From assembly GCA_002839375.1 (NCBI GenBank), contig PGXY01000006.1, forward strand, positions 1 to 64,000: DNA of 64,000 nucleotides, in the 5' to 3' direction. Numbering within the stretch: the first letter of the stretch is position 1; each line of letters starts with the position of its first letter. The position numbers and the translations under genes were made by a program. The notes beneath the pieces are model-generated. The model did not search any database, was not told the DNA's origin, and worked only from the letters and a program-made list of their open reading frames with translations. Source of the DNA: Spirochaetae bacterium HGW-Spirochaetae-1 (lineage in GTDB: Bacteria > Spirochaetota > UBA4802 > UBA5550). Shown here in pieces: positions 6,574-12,332 of this stretch.

Positions 6574-8043
6574 ATGAAACGAATACAGCATGAATGGATA
6601 CTGGGAGCGGCACTGATGGCTGTCATCATAGCGGTCCCGGTTCTTATTTTTCTGCCCGAGGGCAAAGGGGCGCAACGGAGTCCCTGGAAAAATGTTGTAA
6701 AAAGGCGGGCCCACCTGGACCATTCGGCCTTTTTTACGAAAAAATTCGACAGGGCGCAGGATGTGACCCAGGCATGCCTCAAGTGTCACGAAGATGCCGC
6801 AACGGACCTTATGAAGACCTCGCACTGGAAGTGGGAGGGTGAGGCGGTGAGCGTACCTGATCATGGCGGTCTCATTAAAATGGGGAAGAAAAATCTTCTC
6901 AATAATTTCTGCCTGGGTATTAAGGGCAACTGGATTTCCTGCACGAGCTGTCATGCCGGGTACGGCTGGGAAGATGATACGTTTGATTTTAAGAAAGAAG
7001 AGAATGTTGATTGCCTTATCTGTCATGACTGGTCAGGCAACTATTCCAAGGGTGCGTACGGCATGCCGGCCAAGGGCGTTGATCTTCAGTCCGTGGCAAA
7101 GAGTGTGGGATATCCGAAGCGTGAAAACTGCGGTATCTGTCATATCTATGGCGGCGGCGGCATGGGGGTCAAGCATGGTGATCTTGACCAGACCCTGGTG
7201 AACGCCCCGGGGGATGTGGATGTTCATATGGGTAAGAATAACATGCTCTGCGTGGATTGTCATAAAACTGAAAAGCATAATATAAAAGGAAAGGCCTATT
7301 CCATAAGTGTAAACCATGAAAACGGCATCGCCTGTACCGACTGCCATGTTGATGTGCCGCACCAGGATCGCAGGATTAACGCACACCTGGACAGCCTTGC
7401 CTGCGAGACCTGCCACATTTCACGGTTTGCCAAAAGAGCCCCAACCAAGATAAACTGGGACTGGTCCAAGGCCGGTGATCCCAACAGGAAAGAGAGTACA
7501 CATGAGTATCTGAAAATAAAGGGCGAATTCGTTTACGAGGAGAATGTCATACCCGAGTATTACTGGTTTAACCTGAAATCAAAACGCTATATCATCGGCG
7601 ATATAATAGATCCGGGAAAGGTAACGATACTCAACGACCCGGAAGGCGATATCCATGATCCCAAGGCGAAGATCTGGCCCTTCAAGGTGCACAGGGCAAC
7701 ACAGCCCTATGACAGGGTAAACAGGATATTGCTCCAGCCCGTTACCTCGGGGAAAGGGGGATATTGGCACGAGTTCAACTGGGACAAGGCCCTGCGTCTC
7801 GGGTCGGAGATCATTGACGTGAAATACAGCGGCAGCTACGGGTTCACGCGAACCGATATGTACTGGCCCATTGCCCACATGGTCTCTCCCGTCAACCAGG
7901 CACTGCGCTGCTGTGAATGCCACGGCACAGGCCCCACGGGGAAAAGCAGGATGAACTGGAAGGCCCTGGGATATGGTGAGGACCCCGCTGATACCGGTGG
8001 AAGGAAAACGAATAATTTACTTCAGAAAAAGGAGAGTGAATAG
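6574..8043 (+). CDS. octaheme c-type cytochrome, tetrathionate reductase family
   Basis: A 489-residue protein starting at MKRIQHEW; GGCGAGGAAA precedes this ATG, so the TTG 14 codons upstream is rejected. Residues about 10-28 form an N-terminal membrane anchor or uncleaved signal. Eight CxxCH haem motifs follow in order: CLKCH, CTSCH, CLICH, CGICH, CVDCH, CTDCH, CETCH and, after a 150-residue gap, CECH preceded by Cys. The number, spacing and the strings SHWKWEG and MVSPVNQALRCCECHG are those of the octaheme tetrathionate reductase (OTR) family. Members of this family reduce tetrathionate and, in vitro, nitrite or hydroxylamine, so the natural substrate stays open. The next three genes (cytochrome b fusion, two sulfur transporters) favour sulfur chemistry in the periplasm. 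Confidence 0.9.
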   Translation: MKRIQHEWILGAALMAVIIAVPVLIFLPEGKGAQRSPWKNVVKRRAHLDHSAFFTKKFDRAQDVTQACLKCHEDAATDLMKTSHWKWEGEAVSVPDHGGLIKMGKKNLLNNFCLGIKGNWISCTSCHAGYGWEDDTFDFKKEENVDCLICHDWSGNYSKGAYGMPAKGVDLQSVAKSVGYPKRENCGICHIYGGGGMGVKHGDLDQTLVNAPGDVDVHMGKNNMLCVDCHKTEKHNIKGKAYSISVNHENGIACTDCHVDVPHQDRRINAHLDSLACETCHISRFAKRAPTKINWDWSKAGDPNRKESTHEYLKIKGEFVYEENVIPEYYWFNLKSKRYIIGDIIDPGKVTILNDPEGDIHDPKAKIWPFKVHRATQPYDRVNRILLQPVTSGKGGYWHEFNWDKALRLGSEIIDVKYSGSYGFTRTDMYWPIAHMVSPVNQALRCCECHGTGPTGKSRMNWKALGYGEDPADTGGRKTNNLLQKKESE

Positions 8044-8045
8044 AC

Positions 8046-10397
8046 ATGAAGATCTCGATAAAAATCACGGCTGTTCTTCTCCTTTCAACGGCTGTTTCGC
8101 TGGCAGCTGCGGGAATGGCCGACAGCGTTGAGAATGTGCTGCATCCGCAGTTCTTTCTCAAAAACGCCCAGGGCGGAATCATAACCGATAAAAAACAGAA
8201 GATATCCAATGAGAAGAGCTGCATGCCCTGTCATGACGCGAAATATATCATGGCGCACAGCAGCCACTACAAAGATAAGATGAACCCTTCCTGCGTTGAA
8301 TGCCACTTTAAAGACGGGGAGATGAGCGGTGATTACCGCAAGGTAAATGTGCTGGTGCAGCGGCCCGACAATACTAACTGCGGTAAATGCCACGGTATTA
8401 TCGATATGTGCAGGGAAGGCCTGCGTATTCCCGATGACTATACCCGGTCCCTGGATTATCTTCTCGATGGCCGGAGGTATGATTTCACACAGGGCGGCGG
8501 TACTGTCTACGCGCCGCAGAATATCGCCGATTCTGATATGAACATCAAGAACAAGTTCATGTTCAATTATCCCTGGGACGTTCACTCGCTTCGGCAGCTT
8601 GAATGCGTGGACTGCCATTTTAACAGCAATGATCCCCGTTTCTGCGGGACGGTCACGGGCGATCTTGATCATCTCACCAGGGACCCGCGTAAAATCAAAT
8701 CCACGGGCAAGTATCTCAAGTGGCCCGATCACCGGCTTGCGGCTGCATCGTGCGAGTGTTGTCATGATCCCTATGTCATACATGAACATCTGCCATACAA
8801 ACAGCGGCATATGGATACTCTTAACTGCACGGCGTGTCATATTCCCAACGTCAAGGGACCGGGCTTTCAGTCCCTCGATGAAACGGTGGTTACCGAAAAG
8901 GGCGAAGCCCGCATTGAGTTCAGGGGATACGCGCGGGATAACGACTACACCTACGACATGAACACCATGTACCTCGAAGGATACTCGCCGGGACTTTTCT
9001 CCTATAAAGTGGACAAGAAAAAACAGCAGCGCGTTCCCAAATATGTTGAACGCAAAATTTCTCCCTTTAACCTGGTGACCCGCTGGTTCTGGAAGGAAAA
9101 GGACAGCGGTAAAGAAGTGTCTCTTGACGTGGTAAGAAAGGCCTGTCTCGAGGGTAAAAAATATTCTCCCGGGTTGACTGCTTTTTTTGATGCGGATAAA
9201 AACGGGACCATAGACGGGAAAGAACTGGTGCTGGATAAGAAAGAGAAGGTCGCCTTCATGGCATCGCGCCTTGAAAAACTGGGAGTGAAAAATCCCGTTA
9301 TCGTCGGAGTCATAACGCCCCATCGCCTGAACCATGGCCTTGTTCATGAGAAACAGGCCGTTCGCCGGTGCAACGAATGCCACGATACACGGGCGCGCCT
9401 CGGCGACGATATCGTCCTGGCCTCCCATGCCCCGGCGGGAATAATGCCGCGGCTGGCCTCCGATGCGCCGGTTACCCTGAACGGTGAAATAGAATCGGAC
9501 GGCGGAGACGGCTATATTCTCGTACGGAATACCGGCGTGAAATACAGCTATGTCTTCGGTCATGGAAGAAGACTCTGGCTGGATCTTCTGGGATTTTGGA
9601 TTTTTGTCCTGTCGGCCCTGGGTGTGGCCGGTCACTCGGTGCTTCGGTATCGTGCCGCGAAAAAGATACAGGCCCATGCGGCGGTAATGGAACGGGTCTA
9701 CATGTACGGGTTCTATGAGCGGTTGTGGCACTGGACCATGGCGGCGGGTGTCCTTATCCTCATCGTTACGGGATTCGAGATTCATTACAGCGGTTCAGTG
9801 ACGATACTGGGCCTTGAGAACGCCGTGGTCATACATAATGTTCTGGCCTTCATTATCGTCGCTAATGCCTTTCTCTCTCTCTTCTATCACATCACCACCG
9901 GAGAGATAAAGCAGTTTTTCAGTGTCAACCGGATATTCCTCAAGGAAGCTACGGTGCAGACGCTCTATTATATTCACGGTATATTCCGCGGCGAGGCCCA
10001 TCCCATGGCCAAGACCCGGGACAGGAAACTGAACCCGCTTCAGCAGATAACCTATGTGGGGCTGCTGAACATTCTGCTGCCCTTCCAGGTCATCACGGGA
10101 ATACTGATCTGGAGCGCCGGGTACTGGCCCTCCTGGGGCAGTATGCTGGGAGGCCTCACTATTATCGCCCCCCTGCATAATCTCGGTTCATGGATGATAC
10201 TTACTTTTCTCGTCGTCCATGTGTATCTGACCACGACGGGGCACACGGTGCTGGCGAACATTAAAGCCATGGTGACGGGATTTGACGATGTGGAAATAAT
10301 CGAAGAGAGTCAGCAGGTCAGAACAATGCTCGGTATGAAGCTGAAGGACCTGGTGAAGGCCGTTATTGATACGGTCATGAAAAAGGATCGGACGTAA
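8046..10397 (+). CDS. heptaheme cytochrome c fused to membrane cytochrome b
   Basis: A 783-residue protein with a signal peptide (residues 1-23). The periplasmic part carries seven CxxCH motifs (CMPCH, CVECH, CGKCH, CVDCH, CECCH, CTACH, CNECH). Residues 382-393 form a 12-residue EF-hand-type loop, DADKNGTIDGKE. From about residue 505 on there is one helix followed by a four- to five-helix cytochrome b with the His-bearing segments YERLWHWTM, VVIHNVLA, LFYHITTG, PLHNLGSW and LVVHVYLTTTGH, like the di-haem subunits of thiosulfate reductase and formate dehydrogenase. It probably passes electrons between the menaquinone pool and the octaheme protein encoded 2 nt upstream. An AAGGAGAGTG site lies before the ATG. 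Confidence 0.9.
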   Translation: MKISIKITAVLLLSTAVSLAAAGMADSVENVLHPQFFLKNAQGGIITDKKQKISNEKSCMPCHDAKYIMAHSSHYKDKMNPSCVECHFKDGEMSGDYRKVNVLVQRPDNTNCGKCHGIIDMCREGLRIPDDYTRSLDYLLDGRRYDFTQGGGTVYAPQNIADSDMNIKNKFMFNYPWDVHSLRQLECVDCHFNSNDPRFCGTVTGDLDHLTRDPRKIKSTGKYLKWPDHRLAAASCECCHDPYVIHEHLPYKQRHMDTLNCTACHIPNVKGPGFQSLDETVVTEKGEARIEFRGYARDNDYTYDMNTMYLEGYSPGLFSYKVDKKKQQRVPKYVERKISPFNLVTRWFWKEKDSGKEVSLDVVRKACLEGKKYSPGLTAFFDADKNGTIDGKELVLDKKEKVAFMASRLEKLGVKNPVIVGVITPHRLNHGLVHEKQAVRRCNECHDTRARLGDDIVLASHAPAGIMPRLASDAPVTLNGEIESDGGDGYILVRNTGVKYSYVFGHGRRLWLDLLGFWIFVLSALGVAGHSVLRYRAAKKIQAHAAVMERVYMYGFYERLWHWTMAAGVLILIVTGFEIHYSGSVTILGLENAVVIHNVLAFIIVANAFLSLFYHITTGEIKQFFSVNRIFLKEATVQTLYYIHGIFRGEAHPMAKTRDRKLNPLQQITYVGLLNILLPFQVITGILIWSAGYWPSWGSMLGGLTIIAPLHNLGSWMILTFLVVHVYLTTTGHTVLANIKAMVTGFDDVEIIEESQQVRTMLGMKLKDLVKAVIDTVMKKDRT

Positions 10398-10409
10398 GGA
10401 GGTGCGGAC

Positions 10410-10931
10410 ATGAATGCAAAAATTGAAAAACCTTATATAAATCCCTACCTGGGCGGAGCAATGCTGGGCGTTGTTCTTTTCATGGCGTATTTTTTCACCG
10501 GCGCGGGACTTGGAGCCTCGGGCGCCATAAGCAGGGTGCAGACTTTCATTCTCGACATTTTCGCCAGTGGACACGTCGACCGGGTCGGTTACTTCGCCCA
10601 TTACGGCGGTGGAAGCCAGAATGCCCTGGCCGACGCCTCGATTTTCATGCTGCTGGGAACCTTTATCGGAGGGCTCATCTCGGGATTTTTTAACGGCAGG
10701 CTGAAGGTGGAAACCCGCCGCGGTCCGCAGATAACCGATAGAACGCGGTGGATACTGGCCTTTATCGGGGGCGTGATCATGGGTTACGGGGCCCGCCTGG
10801 CCAGGGGCTGCACTTCGGGTCAGGCCCTGAGCGGCGGCGCGGTTTTGTCCGTGGGAAGCTGGGCTTTCATGTTCTGCGTTTTCATCGGCGGCTACGTCAT
10901 AGCCTGGTTTGTGCGGAAGCTGTGGAACTAA
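10410..10931 (+). CDS. YeeE/YedE-family sulfur transport protein (first half-size subunit)
   Basis: A 173-residue membrane protein with four to five hydrophobic helices. It carries the YeeE/YedE signature GARLARGCTSGQALSGGA; the Cys in this motif lies in the substrate path of TsuA-type thiosulfate transporters. Full-length TsuA has two such halves in one chain. Here the halves are separate genes, as in the PmpA/PmpB arrangement. GGAGGT precedes the ATG by 6 nt. The gene lies 12 nt after the cytochrome b fusion and 24 nt before the second subunit, so thiosulfate or a related anion is the probable substrate. Substrate assignment is inference from family and context. Confidence 0.88.
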   Translation: MNAKIEKPYINPYLGGAMLGVVLFMAYFFTGAGLGASGAISRVQTFILDIFASGHVDRVGYFAHYGGGSQNALADASIFMLLGTFIGGLISGFFNGRLKVETRRGPQITDRTRWILAFIGGVIMGYGARLARGCTSGQALSGGAVLSVGSWAFMFCVFIGGYVIAWFVRKLWN

Positions 10932-10955
10932 CGGGAAAGGAAAAGGAGAAATAGT

Positions 10956-12221
10956 ATGGCACCACTGGATATACTGGGAAATTACGGAACATTCTGGGGC
11001 TACCTCACGGCACTTCTCATCGGGATCGGTTTCGGCATCGCGCTGGAGATGTCGGGCTTTGGTGATTCAAGAAGGCTGGCGGCCCAGTTTTATTTTACCG
11101 AAATGCGCGTACTCAAGGTGATGTTCACCGCCATCATTGTGGCCATGACACTCATCTTTCTGACATCGTCCCTGGGGCTGCTTGATTTCAGCAAGGTCTT
11201 TGTGAATCCAACCTACCTGTTCCCCGGCATCATTGGCGGGCTCATCATGGGGGTGGGTTTCATAGTGGGGGGCTTCTGCCCGGGAACATCACTGGTGGCC
11301 ATGTCCACGGGAAAAATTGACGGCATGTTCTTTCTGGGCGGTGTGCTCTTCGGGGTCTTCACCTTCGGTGAAAGCGTGGCTTCCTTCGAGAATTTTTACA
11401 ATTCATATTACATGGGACGCTTTACCCTTTCGGAGTGGCTCGGCGTTGATGCCGGTGTGGCCGTGGTCCTGGTTCTGCTCATGGCCTTTGCCATGTTTTA
11501 CGGGTCCGAGCTCCTTGAGCAGAAGTTCGGTGAGAAGAAGGCATGGAAGAATATCAACCTGAAGCCCTACAAAAAGGGAACCCTCATCGCGGGTTCACTG
11601 CTCCTGCTGACCGGCGTCATCACCATGGCTATTGGGCAGCCTTCAATAGAGCGGCGCTGGAGCTGGAAAAGCGCCGTTGAATCGAAGCGGCTGGAGAGCC
11701 GCGAGGTTTTTATTCATCCCGGTGAGCTTTATGAGGTCATGAACAATGCACTGCTCTATAAAAACCTCATCGACGTGCGCAGTGAAAGTGATTACAATAT
11801 CTTTCATCTGGAAGATGCCGAACATCTGACGCTCAACGATTTGACAAAGACGGATGTCGTGAAAAAATTCCTCGATGCTTCGGCAAACACGGTCAACATC
11901 ATTATATCCAATGATGAAAAAACCGCTGTTGAGGCCTTCAAGATCATGCGCGCGCAGAATATTATCAATCTCTATATATTGAGCGGAGGCATCAACAACT
12001 GGCTTGATACATTCACCATTGATAAATCCATCGCGGTGCGGGAAGACATGAAGAAGAATAAAGATGCGGATGTGCTGCGTTATGCCTTTACACGGGCCGT
12101 GGGTGAGACAGTGTATCCCGCCAATCCGCGGGTGCGCCATGGCCACGGGCTTCCGGAATTAAAGTTTGAGAAAAAAGTCAAAATGAAAACGAAGAAAACC
12201 ATATCGGGCGGATGCGGATGA
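10956..12221 (+). CDS. YeeE/YedE transporter fused to a Cys-less rhodanese-like domain
   Basis: A 421-residue protein. Residues 1-190 form the second YeeE/YedE half, with hydrophobic helices and the signature GGFCPGTSLVAMSTGKIDG. Another helix at about 205-225 follows. Residues about 240-350 look like a rhodanese fold: NLIDVRSESDYNIFHLEDAEHL, then NIIISNDEKTAVEAFKIM, then LSGGINNW. The position that should hold the sulfur-carrying Cys after the strand NIIIS is Asn/Asp, so the domain cannot work as an ordinary sulfurtransferase. The tail is basic and ends in ISGGCG, giving one Cys at the second-last residue, the only one outside the transporter half. The domain may bind or guide sulfur species to the transporter. 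It is the last gene of the operon. Confidence 0.88.
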   Translation: MAPLDILGNYGTFWGYLTALLIGIGFGIALEMSGFGDSRRLAAQFYFTEMRVLKVMFTAIIVAMTLIFLTSSLGLLDFSKVFVNPTYLFPGIIGGLIMGVGFIVGGFCPGTSLVAMSTGKIDGMFFLGGVLFGVFTFGESVASFENFYNSYYMGRFTLSEWLGVDAGVAVVLVLLMAFAMFYGSELLEQKFGEKKAWKNINLKPYKKGTLIAGSLLLLTGVITMAIGQPSIERRWSWKSAVESKRLESREVFIHPGELYEVMNNALLYKNLIDVRSESDYNIFHLEDAEHLTLNDLTKTDVVKKFLDASANTVNIIISNDEKTAVEAFKIMRAQNIINLYILSGGINNWLDTFTIDKSIAVREDMKKNKDADVLRYAFTRAVGETVYPANPRVRHGHGLPELKFEKKVKMKTKKTISGGCG

Positions 12222-12305
12222 TAATACGCCGATGCAAGGACGCCGCGATGCACGGGCGAACAGGGTCCGGACGCGGCGGGGTGATGACAGGGGAGAAACT
12301 GAAAA

Positions 12306-12332
12306 GACCGGAAATCCATCCGGTCTTTTTTT
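12306..12332 (+). terminator. intrinsic terminator of the sulfur operon
   Basis: GACCGG (12306-12311) pairs with CCGGTC (12320-12325) around an 8-nt loop, followed by seven T. It lies about 85 nt past the last gene of the multiheme/YeeE operon. Confidence 0.85.

Follow-up and report, generated by a model that had tools for sequence, protein, structure and literature searches.

An octahaem cytochrome operon with a split YeeE-type importer and a cysteine-tailed pseudo-rhodanese: a candidate periplasmic sulfur relay

How might a respiratory haem enzyme be coupled to a sulfur importer? Octahaem cytochromes of the OTR family are counted as tetrathionate reductases in metagenome surveys, for example in 73 sediment genomes (PMC9040765), although their physiological role is open. 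In the stretch of DNA analysed here (the window; 64,000 nucleotides from Spirochaetae bacterium HGW-Spirochaetae-1, contig PGXY01000006.1), a four-gene operon on the forward strand (6574-12221) places an OTR-family cytochrome directly before two YeeE-type transporter genes. An earlier note on this DNA, made from the letters alone, had read the locus as a quinone-linked chain coupled to the import of a sulfur anion, with tetrathionate reduced to thiosulfate and the product taken up, or the reverse. That note overlooked the feature that best explains the coupling of enzyme and transporter: the last protein carries a rhodanese-like domain that has lost its catalytic cysteine and ends in an arm with an invariant cysteine. 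The tight packing that it described was borne out, as the intergenic gaps are 2, 12, and 24 nt and an intrinsic terminator with a 12-bp stem and a T run lies at 12301-12330. No nitrogen gene and no tusA or yeeD gene adjoins the operon in the window.

The fourth protein: a pseudo-rhodanese that ends in a cysteine arm

The fourth open reading frame (10956-12221, 421 aa) joins in one protein a YeeE/PmpB-like N-half with an extra transmembrane (TM) helix (10956-11640), a rhodanese-like domain with a linker (11641-12202), and a C-terminal S-G-G-C420-G arm (12204-12218). The rhodanese call of the earlier note holds for the fold, as PF00581 matches with an E of 7e-9 and a fold search returned rhodaneses only, but not for an active enzyme. 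The loop that would hold the catalytic cysteine reads ISNDEKTA in the window, and it is of the SNDE or a similar form and lacks cysteine in 43 of 43 homologues; an active sulfurtransferase was therefore rejected, as none of these proteins has a cysteine in the CXXXXR/S loop. Only two cysteines of the protein are invariant across the same homologues, C108 and C420, the latter being the second-last residue. The modal frequency of both G418 and C420 is 1.0 versus a mean of 0.46 over residues 240-416, and the stretch preceding the tail is variable. Among the 80 loci of the genome scan described below, 76 have a complete fourth protein, and every one of these closes with G-x-C followed by no more than two residues; two others leave the contig. 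The endings include GGGCG, SGGCG, and GGLCS, and are usually GGCG. This is the C-terminal GGCG(G) arm known from the SoxY carrier, whose GGCGG arm carries sulfur (PMC6067878). The SoxY domain itself (PF13501) was absent from the protein's Pfam matches, which were listed up to an E of 1.

The AlphaFold2 model of the fourth protein has a mean predicted local distance difference test score (pLDDT) of 87.7, with values above 90 over most of the rhodanese domain and below 50 at residues 1-3 and 417-421 only, suggesting a well-folded domain that carries a flexible tail. The model contains six TM helices, the sixth of which leads into the rhodanese-like domain. Net charges of successive loops, averaged over the 43 homologues, alternate in sign (-1.0, +1.05, -1.05, +0.98, -0.67, +2.23), and because of this positive-inside pattern the rhodanese domain and arm are predicted to be periplasmic and the loop before TM6 cytoplasmic. 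The haem proteins must lie in the periplasm, on the same side as the arm. A disulfide between the tail cysteine and Cys156 of the YeeE C-half was considered and rejected, since Cys156 is not invariant.

The transporter itself is split, and the gene for its C-half precedes that for its N-half. The third protein (10410-10931, 173 aa) matches PF04143 with an E of 1e-21 over profile positions 176-309 and, in a profile comparison, residues 239-327 of TsuA (8k1r) with an E of 4e-11. Its motif ARGC134TSG places C134, invariant in homologues, at the position of TsuA Cys293. The N-half in the fourth protein also matches TsuA, covers PF04143 positions 11-211 (E 1e-15), and presents in its motif GGFC108PGTS the equivalent of TsuA Cys91. 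Adjacent C- and N-halves with one conserved cysteine each are the hallmark of the PmpAB or YedE1E2 split pairs, and a YedE1E2 pair of PmpAB type has been reported to move zero-valent sulfur (PMC10812762). A plain TsuA-type thiosulfate transporter was rejected as the family, as the curated TsuA/YeeE models score far below their cut-offs (NF052577, 38 versus 400 bits; NF041049, 24 versus 645 bits) and the pair has two of the three channel cysteines on two chains rather than all three on one nine-helix chain. Thiosulfate as the imported product, as the earlier note had it, is thus left without specific support: the first conserved cysteine of TsuA is absent, and a split pair has a different reported cargo. 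How sulfur is presented from outside to YeeE-type importers, there the SoxT proteins, has been discussed as an open question (PMC11582611).

Natural controls for the arm come from loci in which either the reductase or the transporter differs. On contig C7 of the source genome (approximately 14.9-20.5 kb; L032:6920-12546, minus strand), a PhsA/PsrA-like molybdoenzyme, an FeS protein, and NrfD are followed by a YeeE C-half, an N-half, and a rhodanese that lacks the loop cysteine and ends in KKKKLEGC. Seven other spirochaetal genomes have the YeeE pair and a tailed rhodanese in a non-octahaem context, one of these loci (L045) being cut off before the molybdoenzyme. In the molybdoenzyme-linked version the rhodanese stands alone as a protein of its own, and a signal-anchor-like segment at its N-terminus is consistent with a periplasmic location. 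Because the same module stands behind genes for a PhsA-like enzyme, an FeS protein, and NrfD, one YeeE/tail module appears to serve two unrelated reductases, octahaem and molybdoenzyme. We sorted the rhodaneses into those of OTR operons with YeeE (type A), those of molybdoenzyme-linked YeeE loci (type B), and those of OTR operons without YeeE (type C). Types A and B have the tail and lack the loop cysteine; type C, found with OTR and b561, keeps the loop cysteine (YCG) and has no tail. Loop and tail cysteines are therefore mutually exclusive in the examined loci, as expected if the sulfur-carrying cysteine moved when the rhodanese domain became a channel partner.

The type C arrangement was seen in the Spirochaetota loci L080 and L082-L086, where a rhodanese with an intact loop cysteine accompanies a membrane-anchored OTR and a short cytochrome b561 without YeeE; on the short contig of L080, unlike L082-L086, the cytochrome b561 was not seen. 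Undecahaem cytochromes lie beside the molybdoenzyme-linked module at L034:4985-6679 and L041:10905-12872, and that of L041 resembles ExtM of selenite/tellurite reduction operons.

The haem proteins and the conservation of the operon

The octahaem protein (6574-8043, 489 aa) has eight CXXCH motifs and one N-terminal hydrophobic helix, and belongs to the OTR family with 542.7 bits on TIGR04315 versus a cut-off of 375. Its sole close solved relative is the Shewanella octahaem cytochrome 1sp3 (E 2e-135), onto which Cys113 and Lys200 map as Cys64 and the haem-2 ligand Lys153, so the protein has the catalytic haem with a lysine ligand and a neighbouring cysteine that mark an OTR. Both residues are kept in all compared octahaem sequences save one divergent and unlinked OTR-family protein (L087:766-2367), in which both are lost. 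Asp150 of OTR, which is Met in the window protein, was rejected as a required active-site residue, as the position varies between M, N, Q, L, and D and does not split linked from unlinked OTRs. Tetrathionate is not established as the substrate, which the sequence does not decide. At L133:1043-3256, upstream of a type A operon, a 15-haem protein with OTR similarity was found beside a PsrB-like FeS protein.

The second protein (8046-10397, 783 aa) couples a heptahaem c domain, whose seven CXXCH motifs are invariant in 28 homologues, to a b561-type diheme membrane domain (PF01292, E 3e-22). Comparison of its alignment profile with that of OTR gave a probability of 99.4% and an E of 3e-21, with the last haems aligning one to one, and this comparison revealed no counterpart of the OTR VKHG lysine or NNFC cysteine in the heptahaem domain. 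A fold search with the AlphaFold2 model returned 1sp3 as the top match, followed by the cytochrome b of hydrogenase-1 and FdnI, although the model is moderate (pLDDT 79) and the kinship rests mainly on the profile comparison. In the second protein, then, an OTR-like haem domain appears to have shed its catalytic site and acquired a b561 domain, a kinship that the earlier note had also overlooked; the protein is probably a dedicated quinol dehydrogenase and electron wire to the octahaem enzyme. The PhsC thiosulfate reductase cytochrome b model (NF011582) scores 120 bits versus a cut-off of 204. These assignments support the quinone-linked chain from b561 through the heptahaem to the octahaem protein, coupled to a YeeE-type sulfur transporter, that had been suggested earlier.

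To see how far the genes stay together, approximately 85,000 species genomes were scanned with the third gene and the 80 best of 550 relatives were kept. All four genes occur together in 57 of these 80 loci. The heptahaem-b gene was not found by similarity in another 12, one of which was scanned with Pfam and has a nonahaem-b561 fusion following instead, and in the remaining 11 the contig ends inside the operon. As all 80 share the gene context or end inside it, the operon is not a chance arrangement. The downstream nonahaem-b561 fusion that replaces the heptahaem-b gene was seen at L109:11752-13638 and in other Bacteroidota and Bdellovibrionota loci. Hosts span at least 12 phyla (Chloroflexota, Myxococcota, Bacteroidota, Bdellovibrionota, Pseudomonadota, Spirochaetota, Ignavibacteriota, Actinomycetota, Eiseniibacteriota, KSB1, Planctomycetota, and Gemmatimonadota); nearly all are metagenome-assembled genomes (MAGs), and one is an isolate, the cultured marine Vibrio hangzhouensis.

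As a set of 80 chosen for highest similarity is biased towards close context, an unselected set of 150 Anaerolineae genomes was examined. OTR scored above the cut-off in 26 of these (the centre genome, G296, being counted from its own locus, L138), and the YeeE-rhodanese protein is encoded in 24 of the 26: in 19 it lies on the OTR contig, a few kb away at most, and in five on another contig, which is consistent with assembly breaks. The other two lack the protein. The coupling of octahaem protein and transporter is kept in every relative of the window's clade with enough sequence. The earlier note's idea hinged on the transporter genes being present in most conserved loci, which holds for this clade. 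OTR was found in 17 of 296 Spirochaetota genomes, seven with the YeeE pair, eight with OTR and b561 (six of these with a small rhodanese), and two with neither; a universal association was rejected because 10 of the 17, from other OTR clades, have no adjoining YeeE. In the OTR tree, the main YeeE-linked type makes up a single branch (support 100/97), and the Shewanella OTR and the unlinked OTRs fall outside it. One more YeeE-linked OTR (G141) also sits outside this branch, suggesting that OTR and YeeE became linked, or stayed linked, on more than one occasion.

An ArsR-type regulator lies directly before the octahaem gene in 36 of the 72 loci with enough upstream sequence, mostly in Chloroflexota (for example L151:5313-5729 and L120:5184-5507), with none in the window; it is a candidate sulfur-responsive repressor, as the ArsR family includes known sulfane-sulfur-responsive repressors (PMC12423496). 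At L044:133-1143, a cytochrome b561 in an OTR-YeeE operon is fused to a PAS domain, an unusual sensor-like fusion.

A proposed relay and its alternatives

Taken together, we favour, with moderate confidence, the reading that the operon encodes a reductase of sulfur compounds that works in the periplasm and is connected to sulfur import by a tethered cysteine arm. The b561 domain would take electrons from menaquinol and send them by way of its b-haems and the seven c-haems of the same protein into the octahaem protein. There the catalytic haem with its lysine ligand, together with the cysteine beside it, may reductively cleave the S-S bond of a sulfane-sulfur compound such as a polythionate, thiosulfate, or polysulfide. 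Cys420 of the flexible tail would take the sulfur fragment, as a persulfide or S-thiosulfonate, in the manner of SoxY, a gene for which lies next to otr in lucinid symbionts (PMC11237559). With the dead rhodanese fixed to a YeeE half, the tail would be within range of the reductase and also of the periplasmic entrance to the PmpAB-like pair, where it would pass the sulfur to the channel cysteines C108 and C134 for import. The analysis itself shows the gene content and its conservation, the lost loop cysteine and the invariant tail cysteine, the predicted topology, the conserved active site, and the link to two unrelated reductase types; what Cys420 carries, which compound is the substrate, which way the flow runs, and whether the proteins touch are inferred. 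We give about even weight to the broader proposal that this is a SoxY-analogous carrier in which the reactive rhodanese cysteine moved from the loop to a GGCG arm and became fused to a split YeeE, forming a modular reductase-carrier-importer relay that serves OTR- and PhsA/PsrA-type reductases and is widespread in bacteria.

Several points weigh against the relay. Its basis is sequence and single-chain models; the tail is short, and with chains modelled singly its reach to OTR is supposition. Direction is not fixed by sequence, as SoxXA uses comparable chemistry oxidatively. No siroheme sulfite reductase was found in the source genome, which leaves no obvious way to reduce imported sulfite in the cytoplasm; the genome encodes one TusA-family protein. 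Finally, the Shewanella OTR reduces nitrite and hydroxylamine as well as tetrathionate (PMC4484225).

Four other explanations were weighed. In the one closest to the earlier note, a tetrathionate reductase would make free thiosulfate for a TsuA-type importer, with the rhodanese as an accessory sulfurtransferase. OTR family membership, the reduction of tetrathionate by the Shewanella enzyme, and the YeeE homology with its Cys91 and Cys293 equivalents fit this account, which we nevertheless consider unlikely, given the TsuA model scores of 24-38 bits against cut-offs of 400-645, the missing first TsuA cysteine, the rhodanese without a catalytic cysteine, and the lack of an adjacent tusA or yeeD gene in the window; it also leaves the invariant C-terminal cysteine unexplained. 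The same octahaem chemistry could instead be mainly that of a nitrite or hydroxylamine reductase, as the activities of the Shewanella OTR and the conserved active-site lysine would allow, with the YeeE and rhodanese-like genes as a sulfur-supply hitchhiker. The linkage to sulfur proteins in the YeeE-linked and most type C loci, together with the absence of a nitrogen gene beside the window operon, makes this very improbable.

The SoxY-like arm would also suit an oxidative direction, in which thiosulfate or sulfide is oxidised onto the arm in the manner of SoxXA and SoxY, electrons pass to quinone, and the bound sulfur is imported. A conserved cysteine beside the catalytic haem is comparable to SoxXA chemistry, and b561 domains can work in either direction. 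A divergent SoxY gene, SoxY-S3, moreover adjoins otr in lucinid symbionts (PMC11237559). Against this stand the PhsA/PsrA-type enzymes that the module also follows, whose characterised members act as reductases, and the many hosts that are MAGs of anaerobic lineages; the source genome gave no SoxY match either, although this is weak as control genomes also gave none. On balance an oxidative role seems improbable, a little more so than thiosulfate import. There is only a slight chance that the module handles selenium, tellurium, or metalloids, transporting selenium compounds made by the reductase: YedE-type selenium models score weakly and two type B loci adjoin the undecahaem cytochromes noted above, one of them ExtM-like, but all selenium models are far below cut-off and such neighbours were seen at these two loci only and at no type A locus.

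Relation to known systems

No description of this operon arrangement was found in the open literature searched, subscription papers lying outside that search; all parts come from known families, and the combination and the tailed pseudo-rhodanese appear to be undescribed. What the operon supplies is a concrete connection that can be tested: a single cysteine, invariant and predicted to be periplasmic, would bridge the respiratory haem enzyme and the sulfur channel in some dozen phyla. If the relay reading is true, calls of tetrathionate reduction based on OTR would have to be separated according to clade and type of operon, and carrier-bound sulfur would belong to the reductive side of periplasmic sulfur metabolism as it does to the oxidative side.

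The octahaem protein shares with the Shewanella OTR (SO_4144) full-length homology, eight haems, and the Cys64 and Lys153 equivalents. It differs in clade, in the replacement of Asp150, and in being tied to a heptahaem-b561 quinol partner and a YeeE pair, whereas the Shewanella enzyme receives its electrons from CymA/STC (PMC4484225). Like PmpA/PmpB and YedE1E2, the transporter consists of two half-proteins with one conserved cysteine each, equivalent to TsuA Cys91 or Cys293, but its halves are longer, its N-half is extended by a TM helix, a pseudo-rhodanese predicted to be periplasmic, and the GGCG tail, and it is linked to reductases rather than to PDO/SQR. With TsuA-TsuB (YeeE-YeeD) it has in common the YeeE fold, channel cysteines, and the pairing of an importer with a sulfur-handling domain; here, however, YeeE is split and lacks the first conserved cysteine, and the partner cysteine is predicted to be periplasmic rather than cytoplasmic and sits on a dead rhodanese rather than a TusA domain. 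The arm recalls SoxY/SoxYZ in its flexible C-terminal Gly-Gly-Cys-Gly, its predicted periplasmic location, and its place beside a haem enzyme with an active-site cysteine, although the carrier has a rhodanese fold, is membrane-tethered to an importer, and is probably reductive. As in PsrABC/PhsABC, finally, the enzyme would be a quinol-linked periplasmic reductase, and in the source genome the YeeE/tail module follows a PhsA-like version of that system, but the window operon has an octahaem cytochrome in place of the molybdoenzyme and a multihaem b561 fusion in place of NrfD.

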